A stretch of 64,000 nucleotides of DNA from Desulfatirhabdium butyrativorans DSM 18734. Its GTDB lineage: Bacteria; Desulfobacterota; Desulfobacteria; Desulfobacterales; Desulfatirhabdiaceae. Every line of letters begins with the position of its first letter. The first letter of the stretch is position 1. The stretch spans positions 1 through 64,000 of the forward strand of contig NZ_AUCU01000010.1 of NCBI RefSeq assembly GCF_000429925.1, in the 5' to 3' direction. Below are positions 1 to 41,908 of this stretch, in pieces. The notes below the pieces were generated by a model. The model had not been told where the DNA came from, ran no database searches, and was given only the letters and a program-made list of their open reading frames with translations. The translations under genes were made by a program, and so were the position numbers.

Positions 1-299
1 CGCGTGTTCGCAATATCCGACATGCCATGCTCTCAGACCCCGGGGAAACGCCATCGGCTCGCCACTATCGCCAACTTTGCATCGACTTCCGCTACCCTAA
101 AAGCGTCGTCTTTCCCATGTTTGTGTATTTCGGGGCTCAATCACTTCAGCCTTGCGGCTTACGGCCTGCCAGTTCGCTGTCCTACGCTTAACGCTCGGGG
201 TCACCCCCTTACGTCCAAGGACTCGCTATCCGGTGGCTGGCTATGCCTTCCGGGATGGGCTTCTCACCCACTAAAACACGCGACCTTGCCCGGCCGCAC
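1..299 (-). mobile_element. Group II intron, 5' part of the ribozyme (truncated by window edge)
   Basis: Read on the minus strand the segment begins GTGCGGCCGGGCAAGG, which fits the conserved group II intron 5' end GUGYG. It continues with a GGGTGAGAAGCCC element and an AAGGGGGTGACCCCGAGCGTTAAGC-type region that resembles domain I of bacterial chloroplast-like (CL) introns. The small open frame at 4-318 on the plus strand is simply the intron antisense. The reverse transcriptase/maturase gene and domains V-VI would lie left of position 1. The 5' exon boundary is placed after ...TTTCACCCTA at 300. The class assignment is from remembered consensus, so the intron call is fairly sure but the subclass is not. 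Confidence 0.7.
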
Positions 300-35707: not shown

Positions 35708-38197
35708 ATGAAACTGCGCTTCATCCTCGTCACCCTATCCCTGCTGGCTTTTTTTTCCGTATCGATCGGCGGCTACCTCTATTATACGTCGTTGCGCAAC
35801 GCCGCCTTCGTGGAAGCGGACCGCAACGCCTCGGCGCGCATCAACGCCATCCATCGTAATGTACTGACATTTCTCTCCGAAAGCGTCAAACCGGCAAAAG
35901 TCCTGTCGGGAATGGCCCCGCTTGTCCGCGCGCTCGAAGAGCCCGATGCGGCCCATCTGGACGAGGCAAATGCCATCCTCGATTATTTCACCTCCGCCAT
36001 CGATGCGAGCGTCTGCTATCTGATGGATCGAAGCGGCAGAACCATCGCCTCCAGCAACCGGAATGCGCCGGATTCCTTTGTCGGCCTCAATTTTTCCTTT
36101 CGCCCCTATTTCCAGAAAGCCATGGATGGCACACCCTTCACCTACCTGGCGCTCGGCACGACATCCGATCTCCGGGGCGCCTATTACGGGCACCCCATTT
36201 ACGGCCATCAGGGAATTACGCCCATCGGCGTATCCGTCATCAAGGTCGCCATCGACAGCATCGAACAAAAGATCGGCCTGTCCGAAGAAGATATCGTGCT
36301 GATCACCGACCCCCAGGGGGTCATCTTCATCACCAACCAGCGCCCCTGGCTCCTGCAACTGGCATGGAAGCAGCCTGAGCAGACCATCGAGACAATTCGC
36401 AGGCACCGCCAATTCGGGGATGGACCGTTTCGGTGGATCGGGCTGCGGCGCATCGGCGATCACATCGTCATGGACGGGGCCGACATCCAATACCTCTCTT
36501 ATCGGAAACCCCTCGACGGATTCGATGGATGGGACATCGTCTATCTGCGAAACCGCAAGGCCATCGTTCAGACGGTGGTCGAACCGCTCATCCGGATGTC
36601 CGGCCCCATCATCCTCATTGTGAGCCTTCTGGTGGCTGTTTCGGTTTTTGTGCTCTATCAGGAAGCTTCCAAGGAACTCGTGCGGAGAAAACAGGTCGAA
36701 AAAGCCCTGGAAGAAAGCACGGCCCGGTATCGGAACCTCTACCACCAGACCCCGGCCATGCTCCATTCGATCGATTCGGCAGGCAGGATGCTCAGCGTGA
36801 GCGATTACTGGCTGGAGGCAATGGAATACCGGCGCGAAGATGTCATCGGCAAACCGCTGACCGGCTTTCTGACGCCGGCCTCACGGCACTATGCCGAACA
36901 GATCGTCATTCCACAGTTTTTTCGATCCGGATTCTGCAAAGACATCCCCTACACCTTCGTCACGGCAAGCGGACGAAACATCGAAGTGCTCCTGTCCGCC
37001 ATCGCCGAGCGAAACGACCGGGGCGAAATCATCCGATCGCTGACGGTATCGATCGACGTCACGGAAAGAAACCGGGCCGTCAAGGCCCTGCAGGAAGCGC
37101 AGGAAGAACTGAAAAGCCACTCGAGAAAACTCGAAATCGAGGTTGCCCGCCGCACCCGGGAGATTTCCGGTATTCTGAAATATTCGTCCAACATCATCTA
37201 TCTCAAGGACCGTGGAAATCGATACCGGTTGGTCAACGCCCGGTTCGAATCCATTTTTGGCCTGTCTTCGAAAACGATTGTCGGAAAAGTCGATGCCGAT
37301 GTCCTGCCGGAGGCCATTGCCGCACGATTTTCACGGATGGATCAGATCGTTCTGGACAGTGCCGAGCCCTCCCAGCATGAAGAAACGTTTCAGGTGTTCG
37401 AAAACACGATGACATTTCTCATCGTCACATTCCCGCTCTTTGACGACCAGGCGACGGTAACCGGGCTCTGTTCCATTCTGACCGATGTCACCGAAGCCAA
37501 AAAAATGCAGGATCAGTACCGGAGGCTGTCGGCAGGCATCCTCGAAAGCCAGGAACGGGAGCGGGCCGCAATCGCACGGGAATTGCACGACGAGCTTGGC
37601 CAGGTGCTGACCGCGCTGCGCATGGACGCCGTGTGGCTTCGAAACCGGCTGAAAAACGTCGATACGGATGCAAGCCTTCGAGCCGAGAGCATGTGCGCAT
37701 CCATCGAAGCAAACATTCAGGAAATCCGCAGCATCGCCCTGCGGCTGAGGCCCCGGGTGCTCGACGATCTGGGGCTGGTGGACGCCCTCGAATGGTTCAC
37801 GACGGATTTCGAGCGAAGGACCGGCATTGCCTGCATTTTTCAGCATGATGAGCCGCTTCAGGCCATTGACAACGCATTATCGACGGCTGCCTACCGGATC
37901 GTCCAGGAAGCCCTGACGAACGTGGCGCGCCATGCCCGGGCCACGTTTGCGGAGGTGAACCTGGGTCTTCATGGCGGGGTGTTGCATCTTTGCGTTTCCG
38001 ACAACGGCGTCGGCTTCGATGCCGGACACCTTCACGACCACATCGGCCTGGGCATTGCCGGCATGATGGAGCGGGCTTCTCTTGTCGGCGGTGCGATCGA
38101 AATCACGTCTTCCGAATCGGAGGGCTCACGGATTGCGTTTACGGCCCCGCTTTTCGTGGATGAGACGCATCAGCCGCATCGAAAGGATATTGGATGA
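35708..38197 (+). CDS. Membrane sensor histidine kinase, Cache-PAS-PAS-HisKA_3
   Basis: The protein of 829 residues has a first membrane helix (about 5-27), a periplasmic double Cache sensor domain (about 35-295; ASVCYLMDRSGRTIASSNRNAPDSFVGLNFSFRPYFQKAMDG), a second helix (about 297-320), two PAS domains (about 340-460 and 490-600) and a NarL-type dimerisation domain with the phosphorylated His at 627 (ARELHDELGQVLTALRMD). The ATPase domain (about 720-820) has NVARHARA and DNGVGFDAG. Cache domains usually bind small organic acids or amino acids. It overlaps the response regulator gene (ATGA) and diverges from the decarboxylase/TRAP cluster, so it probably controls carboxylate uptake and decarboxylation. 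Confidence 0.92.
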   Translation: MKLRFILVTLSLLAFFSVSIGGYLYYTSLRNAAFVEADRNASARINAIHRNVLTFLSESVKPAKVLSGMAPLVRALEEPDAAHLDEANAILDYFTSAIDASVCYLMDRSGRTIASSNRNAPDSFVGLNFSFRPYFQKAMDGTPFTYLALGTTSDLRGAYYGHPIYGHQGITPIGVSVIKVAIDSIEQKIGLSEEDIVLITDPQGVIFITNQRPWLLQLAWKQPEQTIETIRRHRQFGDGPFRWIGLRRIGDHIVMDGADIQYLSYRKPLDGFDGWDIVYLRNRKAIVQTVVEPLIRMSGPIILIVSLLVAVSVFVLYQEASKELVRRKQVEKALEESTARYRNLYHQTPAMLHSIDSAGRMLSVSDYWLEAMEYRREDVIGKPLTGFLTPASRHYAEQIVIPQFFRSGFCKDIPYTFVTASGRNIEVLLSAIAERNDRGEIIRSLTVSIDVTERNRAVKALQEAQEELKSHSRKLEIEVARRTREISGILKYSSNIIYLKDRGNRYRLVNARFESIFGLSSKTIVGKVDADVLPEAIAARFSRMDQIVLDSAEPSQHEETFQVFENTMTFLIVTFPLFDDQATVTGLCSILTDVTEAKKMQDQYRRLSAGILESQERERAAIARELHDELGQVLTALRMDAVWLRNRLKNVDTDASLRAESMCASIEANIQEIRSIALRLRPRVLDDLGLVDALEWFTTDFERRTGIACIFQHDEPLQAIDNALSTAAYRIVQEALTNVARHARATFAEVNLGLHGGVLHLCVSDNGVGFDAGHLHDHIGLGIAGMMERASLVGGAIEITSSESEGSRIAFTAPLFVDETHQPHRKDIG

Positions 38198-38829
38198 TTC
38201 GGGTCTTGATTGCAGATGACCATACCATGGTCCGGGCGGGGCTGTGCCGGATCGTTGAAGAAAGCGAGGAAATGACGGTGGTGGCGGAGGCCGCCAGCGG
38301 CAGGCAGGCCGTGCAACTGGCCAGAGAGCATCAGCCGGATGTCGCGGTCATCGACATTTCCATGCCGGAAGGGGACGGGCTGGAAGTCATGCGGCAGGTC
38401 TTTTCCTTCCGGCCGGAGCTTCCGGTGATCATCCTGACCATGCACGAGGAAGAGCAATATGTCATCCGCGCCATCGAAGCCGGGGCAAAAGGCTATATCA
38501 CCAAGCGTTCGGCCCCGGAGCAACTGGTTTCCGCCATCCGGCAGGTCATGGCAGGCGGGATGTATCTGACGCCCGAGGTGGGCAACGCGCTGGCCCAGTA
38601 CATGTCCCGGGGAAAGATCGAAAAATCCCTTCTCGATACCATTTCCACGCGGGAGCTTCAGGTGCTGCGGCTTCTGGCGATGGGCCGCACCAACCGGGAA
38701 ATCGCATCCGAATACAACATCAGCATCAAGACCGTGGACACCTACCGGCTTCGGCTGCTGAAGAAACTGAACCTGCGCAACAATGCCGATCTTTCCCGCT
38801 TCGCCGTCCAGAACCGGCTGATCGATTGA
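38194..38829 (+). CDS. NarL/FixJ-family response regulator
   Basis: The protein of 211 residues has a receiver domain (about 1-120) with the acidic pair D8-D9, phospho-acceptor D54 (VAVIDISMPEG) and Lys in GAKGYITKRS. A LuxR-type helix-turn-helix lies at about 145-205 (LLDTISTRELQVLRLLAMGRTNREIASEYNISIKTVDTYRLRLLKKLNLRN). It is translationally coupled to the kinase before it and is the cognate transcription factor of that sensor. Likely targets are the divergent oadGAB and TRAP genes, by position only. Confidence 0.94.
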   Translation: MIRVLIADDHTMVRAGLCRIVEESEEMTVVAEAASGRQAVQLAREHQPDVAVIDISMPEGDGLEVMRQVFSFRPELPVIILTMHEEEQYVIRAIEAGAKGYITKRSAPEQLVSAIRQVMAGGMYLTPEVGNALAQYMSRGKIEKSLLDTISTRELQVLRLLAMGRTNREIASEYNISIKTVDTYRLRLLKKLNLRNNADLSRFAVQNRLID

Positions 38830-39335: not shown

Positions 39336-40655
39336 TCATGCCCCAGGCCAGCACTTTTCCGGGGAGATATCCGCTGAAAAGAGATGCCTTCCCCGCTCCA
39401 TGGCACAGAAGTCTCCGCACATCGTGCAGGTTCGATCGTCTTCCGGCGCCCGGGCGCTGCGGACGGCCCTCGCCTGGTCCGGAAACATCAGCCGAGAAAA
39501 CTGCTCCTCCCACAAACTGTCTCTGCGTGCCAGCGATACGAGCTTTTCCCGTTCCCGGCGATGGGGATACTTGGCCAAATCGCCGATGTAGGTGCCGAGT
39601 CGGGTCGCCCGAATCCCTTCCCGGATATCCTTCTCGTCGGGAAGGGCCAAATGTTCCGCAGGCGTAATGGTGCAAATAAGGTCAGCCCCGTACCGGGCCG
39701 AGAGGGCCGCGCCGATGGCACCGGTGATGTGATCGTAGCCTGCGCCGCTGTCCGCAGGAAGGGGACCAAGGACATAATACGGCGCATTGCCGCTCATCCG
39801 CTTTTCCAGCACGATATTGGCCTCGATTTCATCGAGGGGCACGTGCCCCGGGCCTTCCACCATCGTCTGGCACCCGGCCTTCCGACCGATCTCCGCAAGC
39901 TCGCAGTTGACCACCATCTCGGCCATCTGCGCCCGGTCGTGGCTGTCGTGAATGGCTCCCGCCCGGATGCCGTTTCCGAGAGACAGAACGGCATCGTATT
40001 TCTTCATGATGGAAAGCACCCGATCAAACCGCTCATACAGGGGATTTTCCCGGTTGTTGTATTCCATCCAGCTCACCATGAAGGTGCCGCCTTTGGACAC
40101 CAGACCGCCGTAGCGATACCCCTGGTTGCGCAGACGCTCGATGCTGAACCGGTTGATACCGCAGTGAACGGCCATGAAGGAAATGCCGTCGTCCAATTGC
40201 TTCTCGATAAGCTCGAAGAGGTATTCGGGATCGAGACGGTTCGGGTTGCGGTATTTGTGGGCTGCGTCGTAAAACGCCTGGTAAAGGGGAACGTTGCCTA
40301 CGGGAAGGGTGACGGCGTCGAGAACGGTTCGGCGGATCCGGTTGAGGTTGCCGCCAGCGGACAGCTCCATCAGCGTGTCGGCCTTTTCCTCCTCGGCCGC
40401 CCGGGCCTTTCGGACTTCGAGATCCAGATCGCAAATGTCCGATGAGGTTCCGAGGGATGCATTCACTTTGGTCGCAAGACCGCTGCCGATGCCTACGATC
40501 TTCTGAAACGGCCGCTTCGGGTGATGCAGAATGACAATCTGCCCCGCGGCCACCTTCTCCCGGACTTCTTCCACCGATACGCCTTCCTGCCGGGCCACCT
40601 GCTGCATTTGTTCCGTTACGACACCTTCCCTTGCCCACTCGATCTGTGTCTTCAT
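39336..40655 (-). CDS. bzaF: ThiC-family radical SAM enzyme, probably 5-hydroxybenzimidazole synthase BzaF
   Basis: The protein of 439 residues is a ThiC-fold enzyme that rearranges aminoimidazole ribotide. Shared blocks are GTSSDICDLDLE, YGGLVSKGGTFMVSWM, EGPGHVPLDEIEANI and YYVLGPLPADSGAGYDHITGAIGAA. The Fe-S motif CTMCGDFC (Cys 410, 413, 417) is at the C-terminus. The usual ThiC phrase SLGDGLRPG is SLGNGIRAG here, and the gene is headed by a cobalamin, not a TPP, riboswitch. In anaerobes the ThiC paralogues BzaA/B/F make 5-hydroxybenzimidazole, the lower-ligand precursor of B12, and are B12-riboswitch controlled, so BzaF is the better reading than ThiC. ATG 40655 follows AGGAGC; the longer frame to 40823 runs through the terminator. 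Confidence 0.8.
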   Translation of the reverse strand: MKTQIEWAREGVVTEQMQQVARQEGVSVEEVREKVAAGQIVILHHPKRPFQKIVGIGSGLATKVNASLGTSSDICDLDLEVRKARAAEEEKADTLMELSAGGNLNRIRRTVLDAVTLPVGNVPLYQAFYDAAHKYRNPNRLDPEYLFELIEKQLDDGISFMAVHCGINRFSIERLRNQGYRYGGLVSKGGTFMVSWMEYNNRENPLYERFDRVLSIMKKYDAVLSLGNGIRAGAIHDSHDRAQMAEMVVNCELAEIGRKAGCQTMVEGPGHVPLDEIEANIVLEKRMSGNAPYYVLGPLPADSGAGYDHITGAIGAALSARYGADLICTITPAEHLALPDEKDIREGIRATRLGTYIGDLAKYPHRREREKLVSLARRDSLWEEQFSRLMFPDQARAVRSARAPEDDRTCTMCGDFCAMERGRHLFSADISPEKCWPGA

Positions 40656-40780
40656 GTCCAATGCTCCTGTGTTGCGTGTTCGGCGAAATGCCATGTATCG
40701 CATCCCGCCTGCATAGTTCTCAGAAACGATGGACAGTCGTTTCCCGGCCGATCGCCCCCTTTGCGGCAGATCCATCCGAC

Positions 40781-40812
40781 AAAAAAGGCCGTATCGCACA
40801 CGCGATACGGCC
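40781..40812 (-). terminator. Rho-independent terminator of the riboswitch expression platform
   Basis: On the minus strand a perfect 11-bp stem GGCCGTATCGC/GCGATACGGCC with an ACAC-type loop (40787-40812) is followed by six T (40786-40781). It lies downstream of the cobalamin aptamer and about 125 bases before the bzaF-like start, so binding of B12 would be expected to stop transcription here. Confidence 0.85.
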
Positions 40813-40837
40813 TCATTGGACAATCGGTCCGACTCTC

Positions 40838-40985
40838 GGATTCGGGCAGGTCTTCTGACTTGCAGATCATCCCTTCATCACGCCTTCCCATCGCCTGAAC
40901 GGCACGACAGTGGCATCCAGTGATGTCGGTCCCTGCTTACAGCGCCGGTCCAACGTTACGGATTTTCACCGTATTCCCTTTTCAC
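40838..40985 (-). promoter_or_regulatory. Cobalamin riboswitch upstream of the ThiC-family gene
   Basis: The minus strand shows the conserved cobalamin aptamer elements in the right order: GGGAATACGGTGAAAATCC, GCTGTAAGCAGGGA, the B12 box core GATGCCACTG, GATGGGAAGGCG and AGTCAGAAGACCTGCCCG. The order and spacing match the class I aptamer, and the terminator follows directly. It should repress the downstream gene when adenosylcobalamin is plentiful. No THI box of a TPP riboswitch is present. Confidence 0.9.
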
Positions 40986-41236
40986 GGCCGCGAACGGCCG
41001 CACCTGAATCACTCGAATGCCATGAACATACCACATCCGGAACATGGATGAAAAGGATGAAAATCCGGAGTGTCAGCGATGGAATTGACTTTCCAGAGCG
41101 CTCATGGTAGTTTTCGCCACTCAAATCGTCTGCAACGTACCGGAAGCGTTGCTTCTGTTCAAACAGGCGCTTTATCGGGCAAACGAAGCATGAATAGCGC
41201 TTTCCGAGCCCCAATCCATCTGAGGCCATTTCTCCC

Positions 41237-41908
41237 ATGTATCAATTTCCGAAAAACGATCCGCCCCGGCATACGGCCTACCCCATCGATCCGGCAGGAT
41301 ACGCCTTCATCGGTGCCGGCGCTTTCATCACAGCCGTATTCGCGCTGCTGTCGGCGCCGACCCCAGCCATCGTCTTCATGATCCTGACCCTCTTCGTCTG
41401 CTTTTTCTTCCGCGATCCCGATCGCCTCGTGCCGGCGGAGGAAAACGCCATCGTTTCCCCGGCCGACGGCAAGATCATCGCCATCGCACCGACGACGGAA
41501 AGCCCCTTCGGCCCCGGCGACTGGGTGCGCATCAGTATCTTCATGTCGATTTTCAATGTACACGTCAATCGGGTTCCCTATACGGGAAAGATCGAAACCA
41601 TCGATTATTTCCCTGGGAAATTCGTTTCGGCCCACCTTGACAAGGCATCCACGGACAACGAGCGAAACGCCATCCTGATGAAAACCGAGGAAGGATTTCA
41701 TATTGGATGGATGCAGATCGCAGGGCTGATCGCCCGAAGAATCATCTGCCGGATTCAGCCCGGCGATGGGGTCCAGAAAGGACAGCGCTTCGGTGTCATC
41801 TGCTTCGGCTCCAGAGTCGATACCTATCTACCTGGAAACGCAATCATCAGCATTGCGGCAGGAGAACATGTCAAGGCAGGCGCAACGGTCATCGCCCGGA
41901 TGCCGTAA
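41237..41908 (+). CDS. psd: Phosphatidylserine decarboxylase proenzyme (short form)
   Basis: The protein of 223 residues converts phosphatidylserine to phosphatidylethanolamine at the inner membrane. Two N-terminal membrane segments (about 18-55) lead to FFRDPDR, IVSPADGKI, the FMSIFNVHVNRVP block and the self-cleavage site FGSRVD (about 192-197), where the Ser becomes the pyruvoyl group. Length fits the short archaeal/proteobacterial type that is often paired with PssA; no pssA is next to it. The next gene, an isopropylmalate dehydrogenase, begins 93 bases later after a small hairpin. Confidence 0.93.
   Translation: MYQFPKNDPPRHTAYPIDPAGYAFIGAGAFITAVFALLSAPTPAIVFMILTLFVCFFFRDPDRLVPAEENAIVSPADGKIIAIAPTTESPFGPGDWVRISIFMSIFNVHVNRVPYTGKIETIDYFPGKFVSAHLDKASTDNERNAILMKTEEGFHIGWMQIAGLIARRIICRIQPGDGVQKGQRFGVICFGSRVDTYLPGNAIISIAAGEHVKAGATVIARMP

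Follow-up and report, generated by a model that had tools for sequence, protein, structure and literature searches.

A ThiC-family gene on the minus strand of a 64,000-nucleotide stretch of Desulfatirhabdium butyrativorans DNA (the window, taken here at its whole length) is almost certainly bzaF, to judge from a second ThiC with a TPP riboswitch elsewhere in the genome, the clade of its protein and the residues expected at its AIR site. The gene lies behind a complete corrinoid riboswitch whose P13 hairpin and intrinsic terminator share an arm, and this architecture, the sole basis on which the sign is read, suggests with somewhat better than even probability that corrinoid turns lower-ligand synthesis ON. 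For the account as a whole, bzaF under an ON-type corrinoid riboswitch, we infer which reaction is catalysed, which way the switch works and what ligand it senses, and hold the combination a shade less firmly. As an enzyme the protein is another member of the known BzaF family; the leader is the news, and as regulation it is, if the sign is right, a variant of the activating corrinoid riboswitch. In textbooks, corrinoid riboswitches act as OFF switches, and the literature searched reports no further activating example beyond A. halodurans cobT, none on bzaF, and no split between the riboswitches of lower-ligand genes and those of other genes such as is described below. If true, the aptamer class by which uptake and ring synthesis are shut off would turn base synthesis and attachment ON.

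Layout of the locus and its leader

The elements of the locus, all on the minus strand of the window, are as follows.

39336..40655, minus strand: probable bzaF coding sequence, ThiC-family radical SAM protein of 439 aa (ATG 40655, stop 39336; PF01964, 564 bits)
40664..40668, minus strand: ribosome-binding site AGGAG, predicted from sequence, 8 nt 5' of the ATG
40781..40814, minus strand: intrinsic terminator, hairpin plus T6 (z = -5.05; -24.0 kcal/mol; 40812-40808 common with P13)
40808..40831, minus strand: P13 hairpin (5' arm 40831-40826, loop 40825-40813, 3' arm 40812-40808; -4.1 kcal/mol)
40821-40816, minus strand: L13 GUCCAA, within the P13 loop, complementary to L5 UUGGAC
40828..41022, minus strand: cobalamin (corrinoid) riboswitch aptamer (RF00174, 108.4 bits, model 1-189 complete)
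40845..40861, minus strand: B12 box of the aptamer, AAGTCAGAAGACCTGCC, assigned by sequence and position
40948..40953, minus strand: L5 strand UUGGAC, proposed by complementarity as kissing-loop partner of L13

The cobalamin aptamer and terminator that the original prediction saw ahead of a ThiC-fold gene are confirmed: the aptamer is a complete RF00174 match (gathering score 31.5), and the terminator hairpin comprises 13 pairs followed by T6, an equally good fold being found in 0/200 shuffles of a 61-nt stretch. The extent first given to the locus, 39336-40990, encloses real elements, but its end at 40990 falls 32 bases short of the aptamer end at 41022. The terminator is separated from the ATG at 40655 by 125 nt, a stretch that contains the AGGAG; the TTG at 40823, where a mechanically called reading frame begins, is upstream of the terminator and was not taken as the bzaF start. 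Both neighbours, a LuxR-type response regulator (38194-38829) and a phosphatidylserine decarboxylase (41237-41908), are on the plus strand, and bzaF therefore appears to form a transcription unit of its own. At the window edge there are group II intron domains (28-264, minus strand; RF02005, 135 bits).

The 3' arm of P13, GGCCG (40812-40808), is also the start of the terminator core, so that P13 and the terminator are mutually exclusive. L5 and L13 can form six Watson-Crick pairs, or eight pairs with one G-U when the helix is extended. The window P13 alone is not significant in a mononucleotide shuffle test confined to the stretch 5' of L13 (p = 0.33); in the window leader no separate hairpin reaches -5 kcal/mol, and one alternative hairpin of -3.3 is present. 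Other pairings of the terminator arm with the aptamer were considered as antiterminators and rejected: they reach 8-10 bp including G-U, the best with pre-aptamer sequence, and none is convincing. Mispairing of the free P1 strand made minimum-free-energy folds of shortened leaders too noisy, and they were set aside.

Identity of the ThiC-family protein

The original prediction took the gene for a ThiC paralogue of the BzaF kind from its motif SLGNGIRAG, which the window protein indeed carries. The second, true thiC with a TPP riboswitch whose existence was to decide the matter is present at G000:C69:15318-16577; its TPP riboswitch scores 70.1 bits, its motif is SLGDGLRPG, and the ORF that follows it is presumably thiM. 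The genome has two PF01964 matches in all, 39.8% identical to each other, and no second N-type paralogue, that is, none with Asn at window position 228. The C-terminus of the window protein carries the CX2CX4C motif (CTMCGDFCAM) expected of a ThiC-fold radical SAM enzyme. Its nearest annotated counterpart is the T. lovleyi BzaF (pGLOV01 GLOV_RS18185, annotated 5-hydroxybenzimidazole synthase), with 66.3% identity over 99%, the motif SLGNGLRAG and a gene beside cobT; the T. lovleyi gene follows cobT with no Rfam cobalamin aptamer upstream, whereas the window gene stands alone behind its own aptamer. The available text of PMC7726332 reports that G. sulfurreducens BzaF (GSU3005) makes the base of 5-OHBza cobamide. 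The gene also occurs in Desulforhopalus singaporensis DSM 12130 (L030), a relative in culture.

Active-site residues were compared in 157 rows, 98 N-type and 59 others, the N-type sample consisting of the best 80 of 319 relatives of the window protein, 16 further relatives, the T. lovleyi protein and the window protein; copies of the window gene (L002 and L088) were excluded. Position 228 of the window protein is N in 98/98 N-type rows (the best 80 of 319 relatives included) and D in 59/59 others, and position 67 is S in 98/98 N-type rows (again with the best 80 of 319) and N in 58/59 others, with one gap. In the alignment these positions correspond to Arabidopsis ThiC D383 and N228, the numbering offset of 68 being set from letter matches at N228, D383 and E422. 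In AtThiC these two residues sit at N3 and the 3'-OH of AIR, D383A gives no HMP-P, and D383N partly restores activity, according to the portion of PMC11117688 available. The window protein and ThiC (phosphomethylpyrimidine synthase) have in common their fold and the E422 and C474 equivalents, kept in 157/157 rows; they differ in D383 to N, N228 to S, motif P to A, and a cobalamin in place of a TPP riboswitch. On sequence grounds the N-type pocket would still suit AIR, and the change in two residues that direct the course of the ThiC cascade is consistent with a different product.

In a quick-search tree of 98 rows (39 N-type rows out of 98, plus all 59 others) a branch of 1.66 changes per column, with 100% SH-aLRT support, sets the N-type rows apart. 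The window protein thus falls on the side of the annotated T. lovleyi BzaF, away from ThiC, as the original prediction required, in a tree whose BzaF anchor is that annotated protein rather than a biochemically characterised BzaF and from which BzaA and BzaB are missing. One long row, L133, flagged by a program warning, attaches beside the N-type branch. The separate ThiC, the clade and the two changed AIR-contacting residues together support the identification as BzaF.

That the protein is a true ThiC which happens to be under B12 control is extremely improbable. It passes the NCBIfam thiC models NF009895 and TIGR00190 (502.2 bits, cut-off 460), and the part of native activity kept by AtThiC D383N (PMC11117688, as far as available) would be in keeping with such an enzyme; but its clade and AIR-site residues differ from those of ThiC, and the genome has another ThiC with a TPP riboswitch. 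Since the T. lovleyi protein, which NCBI names BzaF, also exceeds the thiC cut-off at 554 bits, those models cannot separate BzaF from ThiC; they are not decisive and were dropped as a judge between the two. It is plausible from the sequence that an automatic ThiC annotation of the window protein is wrong. Quite unlikely, if less so, is a BzaF-clade paralogue that makes another product or requires a partner, for example a BzaA/BzaB-like need for a second protein. The clade is long-branched, at the 1.66 changes per column given above, and no assayed enzyme of this Desulfobulbales-type subclade was met in the literature. Against this, the window protein scores 486.9 bits, below the BzaB (TIGR04386) cut-off of 700, the second N-type paralogue that a partner might be is absent from the genome, and the active-site signature is identical to that of the annotated T. 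lovleyi BzaF. A TIGR04386 search covering 197 genomes from the phylum found nothing above the BzaB cut-off.

An Rfam cobalamin aptamer lies upstream of 49 of the 50 N-type loci scanned (20/20, 9/10 and 20/20), T. lovleyi being the exception, and no TPP riboswitch was found in these 50. Five of ten D-type loci have a TPP riboswitch, one of the five also a cobalamin aptamer on the opposite strand. On a Halobaculum roseum plasmid (L169, NZ_CP082287.1) bluB and cobT flank a gene annotated thiC, which has D at the D383 column. A separate true ThiC alongside BzaF is not universal: G021, G042 and G054 (97, 97 and 86% complete) have no ThiC-family match other than the BzaF-type protein (L147 at G021:C158, L136 at G042:C20, L148 at G054:C207). 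If these assemblies are complete enough the three have BzaF without ThiC, and to name the protein ThiC would falsely credit them with thiamin pyrimidine synthesis.

The cobamide genes of the genome fit the assignment. There is one CobT (C68:137030-138055, 429.5 bits), itself accompanied by a cobalamin riboswitch at C68:138376-138187, and BluB is not over its cut-off of 150, the best match in the genome reaching 39.6 bits; this is the context expected of BzaF. CbiC is present, and the corrin ring is therefore probably made de novo. TIGR04385, one of the bza models, which we take to be BzaD, has 13 matches in the genome, the best at 262 bits and none over the cut-off of 450. The predicted lower-ligand base is 5-hydroxybenzimidazole, or a methylated form of it if a BzaC exists. 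The available part of PMC6461909 predicts the lower ligand from bzaF and finds bza genes in 96 of its genomes.

Shared arms and kissing loops in related leaders

The 98 N-type rows, with the best 80 of 319 relatives among them, yielded 96 leaders, L041 (15 nt upstream) and L168 (no riboswitch) being left out. They share ancestry, so that the 78 with a strict B12 box do not amount to 78 independent events, and two leaders of the set, L074 and L148, look identical. A terminator core follows the box by 25-48 nt (median 34.5) in 78/78 strict-box leaders, the 25-nt value (L037) coming from a mis-set start, and by 27-44 nt in 17 of the 18 variant-box leaders as read by script; in the remaining one, L081, the core was missed by the script and its GGGTTC and GAACCC arms are visible, spaced wider than usual. 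A hairpin whose 3' arm lies in the terminator 5' arm is found in 74/78 strict-box and 17/18 variant-box leaders, and one that in addition has L13 in its loop in 75/78 strict-box leaders. The other three (L051, L062 and L065) are rejected by the script's one-defect rule, and such a stem is seen by eye in all three. These distance and shared-arm measures replaced a first P13 finder (52/78 leaders completed, 40 with overlap) because it plainly mis-assigned several leaders.

When the P13 5' arm was shuffled by mononucleotide, p was 0.05 or less in 27/78 leaders, and 51/78, the window included, do not reach this level; over 24 non-redundant leaders 7 reach it and the combined p is 7.6e-7. Separate hairpins that reach -5 kcal/mol occur in 0/78 bzaF leaders versus 44/54 long-platform controls. 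The L5 and L13 types agree by script in 89/96 leaders, 69 having GGRC with GYYC and 20 CCC with UGG-type; the 7 flagged by the loose patterns are concordant on reading, which brings the totals, with those 7 of 96 typed by eye, to 74 GGRC/GYYC and 22 CCC/UGG-type. This co-change may represent one joint event, and would then show that the pair is real rather than how often it arose. In about 17 leaders the aptamer is apparently reduced and lower-scoring (51-91 bits), with a box ending in AGACG and a recurring GATGGCAAAGGGTTC-like block; L053, L059, L066, L074, L078, L138, L144, L149, L150, L153, L155, L159 and L160 are among these, possibly a separate aptamer subtype.

Cobalamin riboswitches number 101 in 27 of 28 genomes, and the 93 that are not among the 8 bzaF leaders were examined as controls. 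A terminator could be measured in 78/93, with 8 short platforms (28-37 nt) and 70 long ones (52-146 nt). Linkage to cobT is found for 6/8 short-platform versus 2/70 long-platform riboswitches (Fisher p = 2.9e-6, relatedness ignored), a count that excludes G020:C67, some 2.5 kb before cobT. Three of the short platforms lie directly before cobT (that of D. butyrativorans itself, G011:C8 and G021:C88), and two head three-gene operons ending in cobT (G019:C20 and G008:C41). The former operon (L281) encodes by Pfam a zinc dehydrogenase, a Glycos_transf_3 protein and CobT, and the latter (L282) is a three-gene operon like it, the Pfam assignment having been made on L281; the zinc dehydrogenase and the Glycos_transf_3 protein may belong to lower-ligand activation. 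The sixth (L306, G002:C53:22252-24502) consists of a bzaF-type leader, a 38-residue ThiC-family fragment and then cobT, and looks like a case where bzaF was lost and its riboswitch kept for cobT. The other two short platforms precede related outer-membrane-like Phenol_MetA_deg (PF13557) proteins (L283:361-1287 in G022:C92 and L284:409-1308 in G019:C26), for which one might guess at a role as a channel for aromatic lower-ligand bases.

The two long platforms before cobT are of different kinds: at G023:C32 there is an insertion in between and the shared arm is nonetheless kept, and at G026:C410 P13 is truly separate. The 15/93 without a box or terminator include G015:C165, before cobT, which has no shared arm. 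Among 67 cobT matches, 30 were examined as loci, and in 6 of these a riboswitch box lies no more than 420 nt upstream; they add three further cobT-linked riboswitches (G060, G029 and G069), all of them short (33-35 nt). In total the shared P13/terminator arm is found in 10/12 cobT-linked riboswitches, and is lacking in G026:C410 and G015:C165. Within the D. butyrativorans genome the cobT leader has the shared arm and the four other cobalamin riboswitches, which precede a predicted transporter (DUF2162, two in tandem), CbiK and a FecCD permease, do not; their platforms are 66-90 nt, and three of the four have a separate P13 of -5.5 to -11.5, the best separate hairpin of the fourth (C32b) being -2.1. 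Spaced, OFF-type layouts thus serve in the same genomes as internal controls for the putatively ON-type bzaF and cobT leaders.

Direction of the switch

The B12 control originally predicted for the gene holds, insofar as a cobalamin aptamer precedes it; its usual sign, repression, is judged not the likeliest. The model for activation is the A. halodurans cobT leader, which the available text of PMC10653944 presents as the first activating corrinoid riboswitch: it responds to cobinamide, its P13 and terminator share a strand, and P13, held by L5-L13, is the antiterminator. Compared with that description, the window leader likewise has mutually exclusive P13 and terminator, with L13 in the P13 loop and complementary to L5, before a lower-ligand gene. 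The UGG-type L13 of the Desulfobacterota cobT leaders and of 22/96 bzaF leaders resembles the UGGC described for A. halodurans; unlike the A. halodurans case, the gene is bzaF and the loop pair is rewritten (L5 GGRC, L13 GYYC) in 74/96 leaders. The repressing P. megaterium metE-type riboswitch shares the aptamer class, the kissing loop and the intrinsic terminator with the window leader, but there, according to PMC10653944, P13 and the terminator are separate structures, an arrangement also seen in the four D. butyrativorans riboswitches other than those of bzaF and cobT.

In the mechanism proposed, the strong terminator would in the absence of corrinoid win over P13, leaving bzaF off. Corrinoid bound during transcription, most usefully cobinamide, the ring still without its base, would let L5 pair with L13, and this kissing loop would hold P13 together, block the terminator and allow bzaF to be read. 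BzaF would convert the purine intermediate AIR to 5-hydroxybenzimidazole, the base of an anaerobically made cobamide, and CobT would then activate that base. With the P13-sharing layout before cobT too, base synthesis and attachment would be a regulon switched ON by the ring, and the riboswitches before transport and cobalt-chelatase genes, which keep P13 apart, would presumably switch OFF. Activation is favoured because the sole competitor of the terminator that was found is a hairpin with a loop for the bound aptamer to grip. We consider it slightly likelier than an even chance that the bzaF, cobT and cobT-ending operons of anaerobic Desulfobacterota form a regulon of sign-inverted corrinoid riboswitches in which P13 is the antiterminator and the ring calls for the base, both sides of the kissing loop having been rewritten together in most bzaF leaders. 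Two questions follow: whether platform geometry predicts the sign of a corrinoid riboswitch, and whether an incomplete corrinoid is sensed to time lower-ligand synthesis.

The shared-strand rule tells apart the activating and the repressing riboswitch that the available portion of PMC10653944 dissects, where it is underlain by one natural riboswitch and synthetic designs, 7/12 of which activated. Several points count against activation: P13 by itself is a weak hairpin, the spacing of P13 and terminator across 38 riboswitches in the same source starts at 0, G026:C410 and G015:C165 precede cobT without the layout, and two short platforms precede Phenol_MetA_deg genes. There is an appreciable chance, though one well below even, that BzaF is under classical feedback, in which the finished cobamide represses: the L5-GUCC pseudoknot would melt a P13-like ligand-free antiterminator and the terminator would form. 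Melting of the hairpin by L5 predicts the same conserved pairs, and the corrinoid riboswitches known before that of A. halodurans cobT all repress, the other cobT riboswitches tested included, as the available text of PMC10653944 has it. A B12 riboswitch of Geotalea daltonii, upstream of cob/cbi genes that include bzaF, is moreover read as product sensing in the accessible part of PMC13119186. However, the kissing loop was seen to stabilise P13 rather than melt it in the riboswitches that have been dissected (PMC10653944, same portion), a hairpin of -4.1 set against a terminator of -24.0 kcal/mol would be a poor antiterminator unless stabilised, and the four other riboswitches of the genome have a spaced platform. 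Activation through a stabilised P13 remains the preferred reading of the bzaF leader.

Many of the long platforms (such as L183, L199, L202, L213 and L240) have a conserved GGATAAAAAAGGGA-ATCC element just 5' of the terminator, which could pair with the terminator 5' arm and perhaps act as the ligand-free antiterminator of the repressing class.
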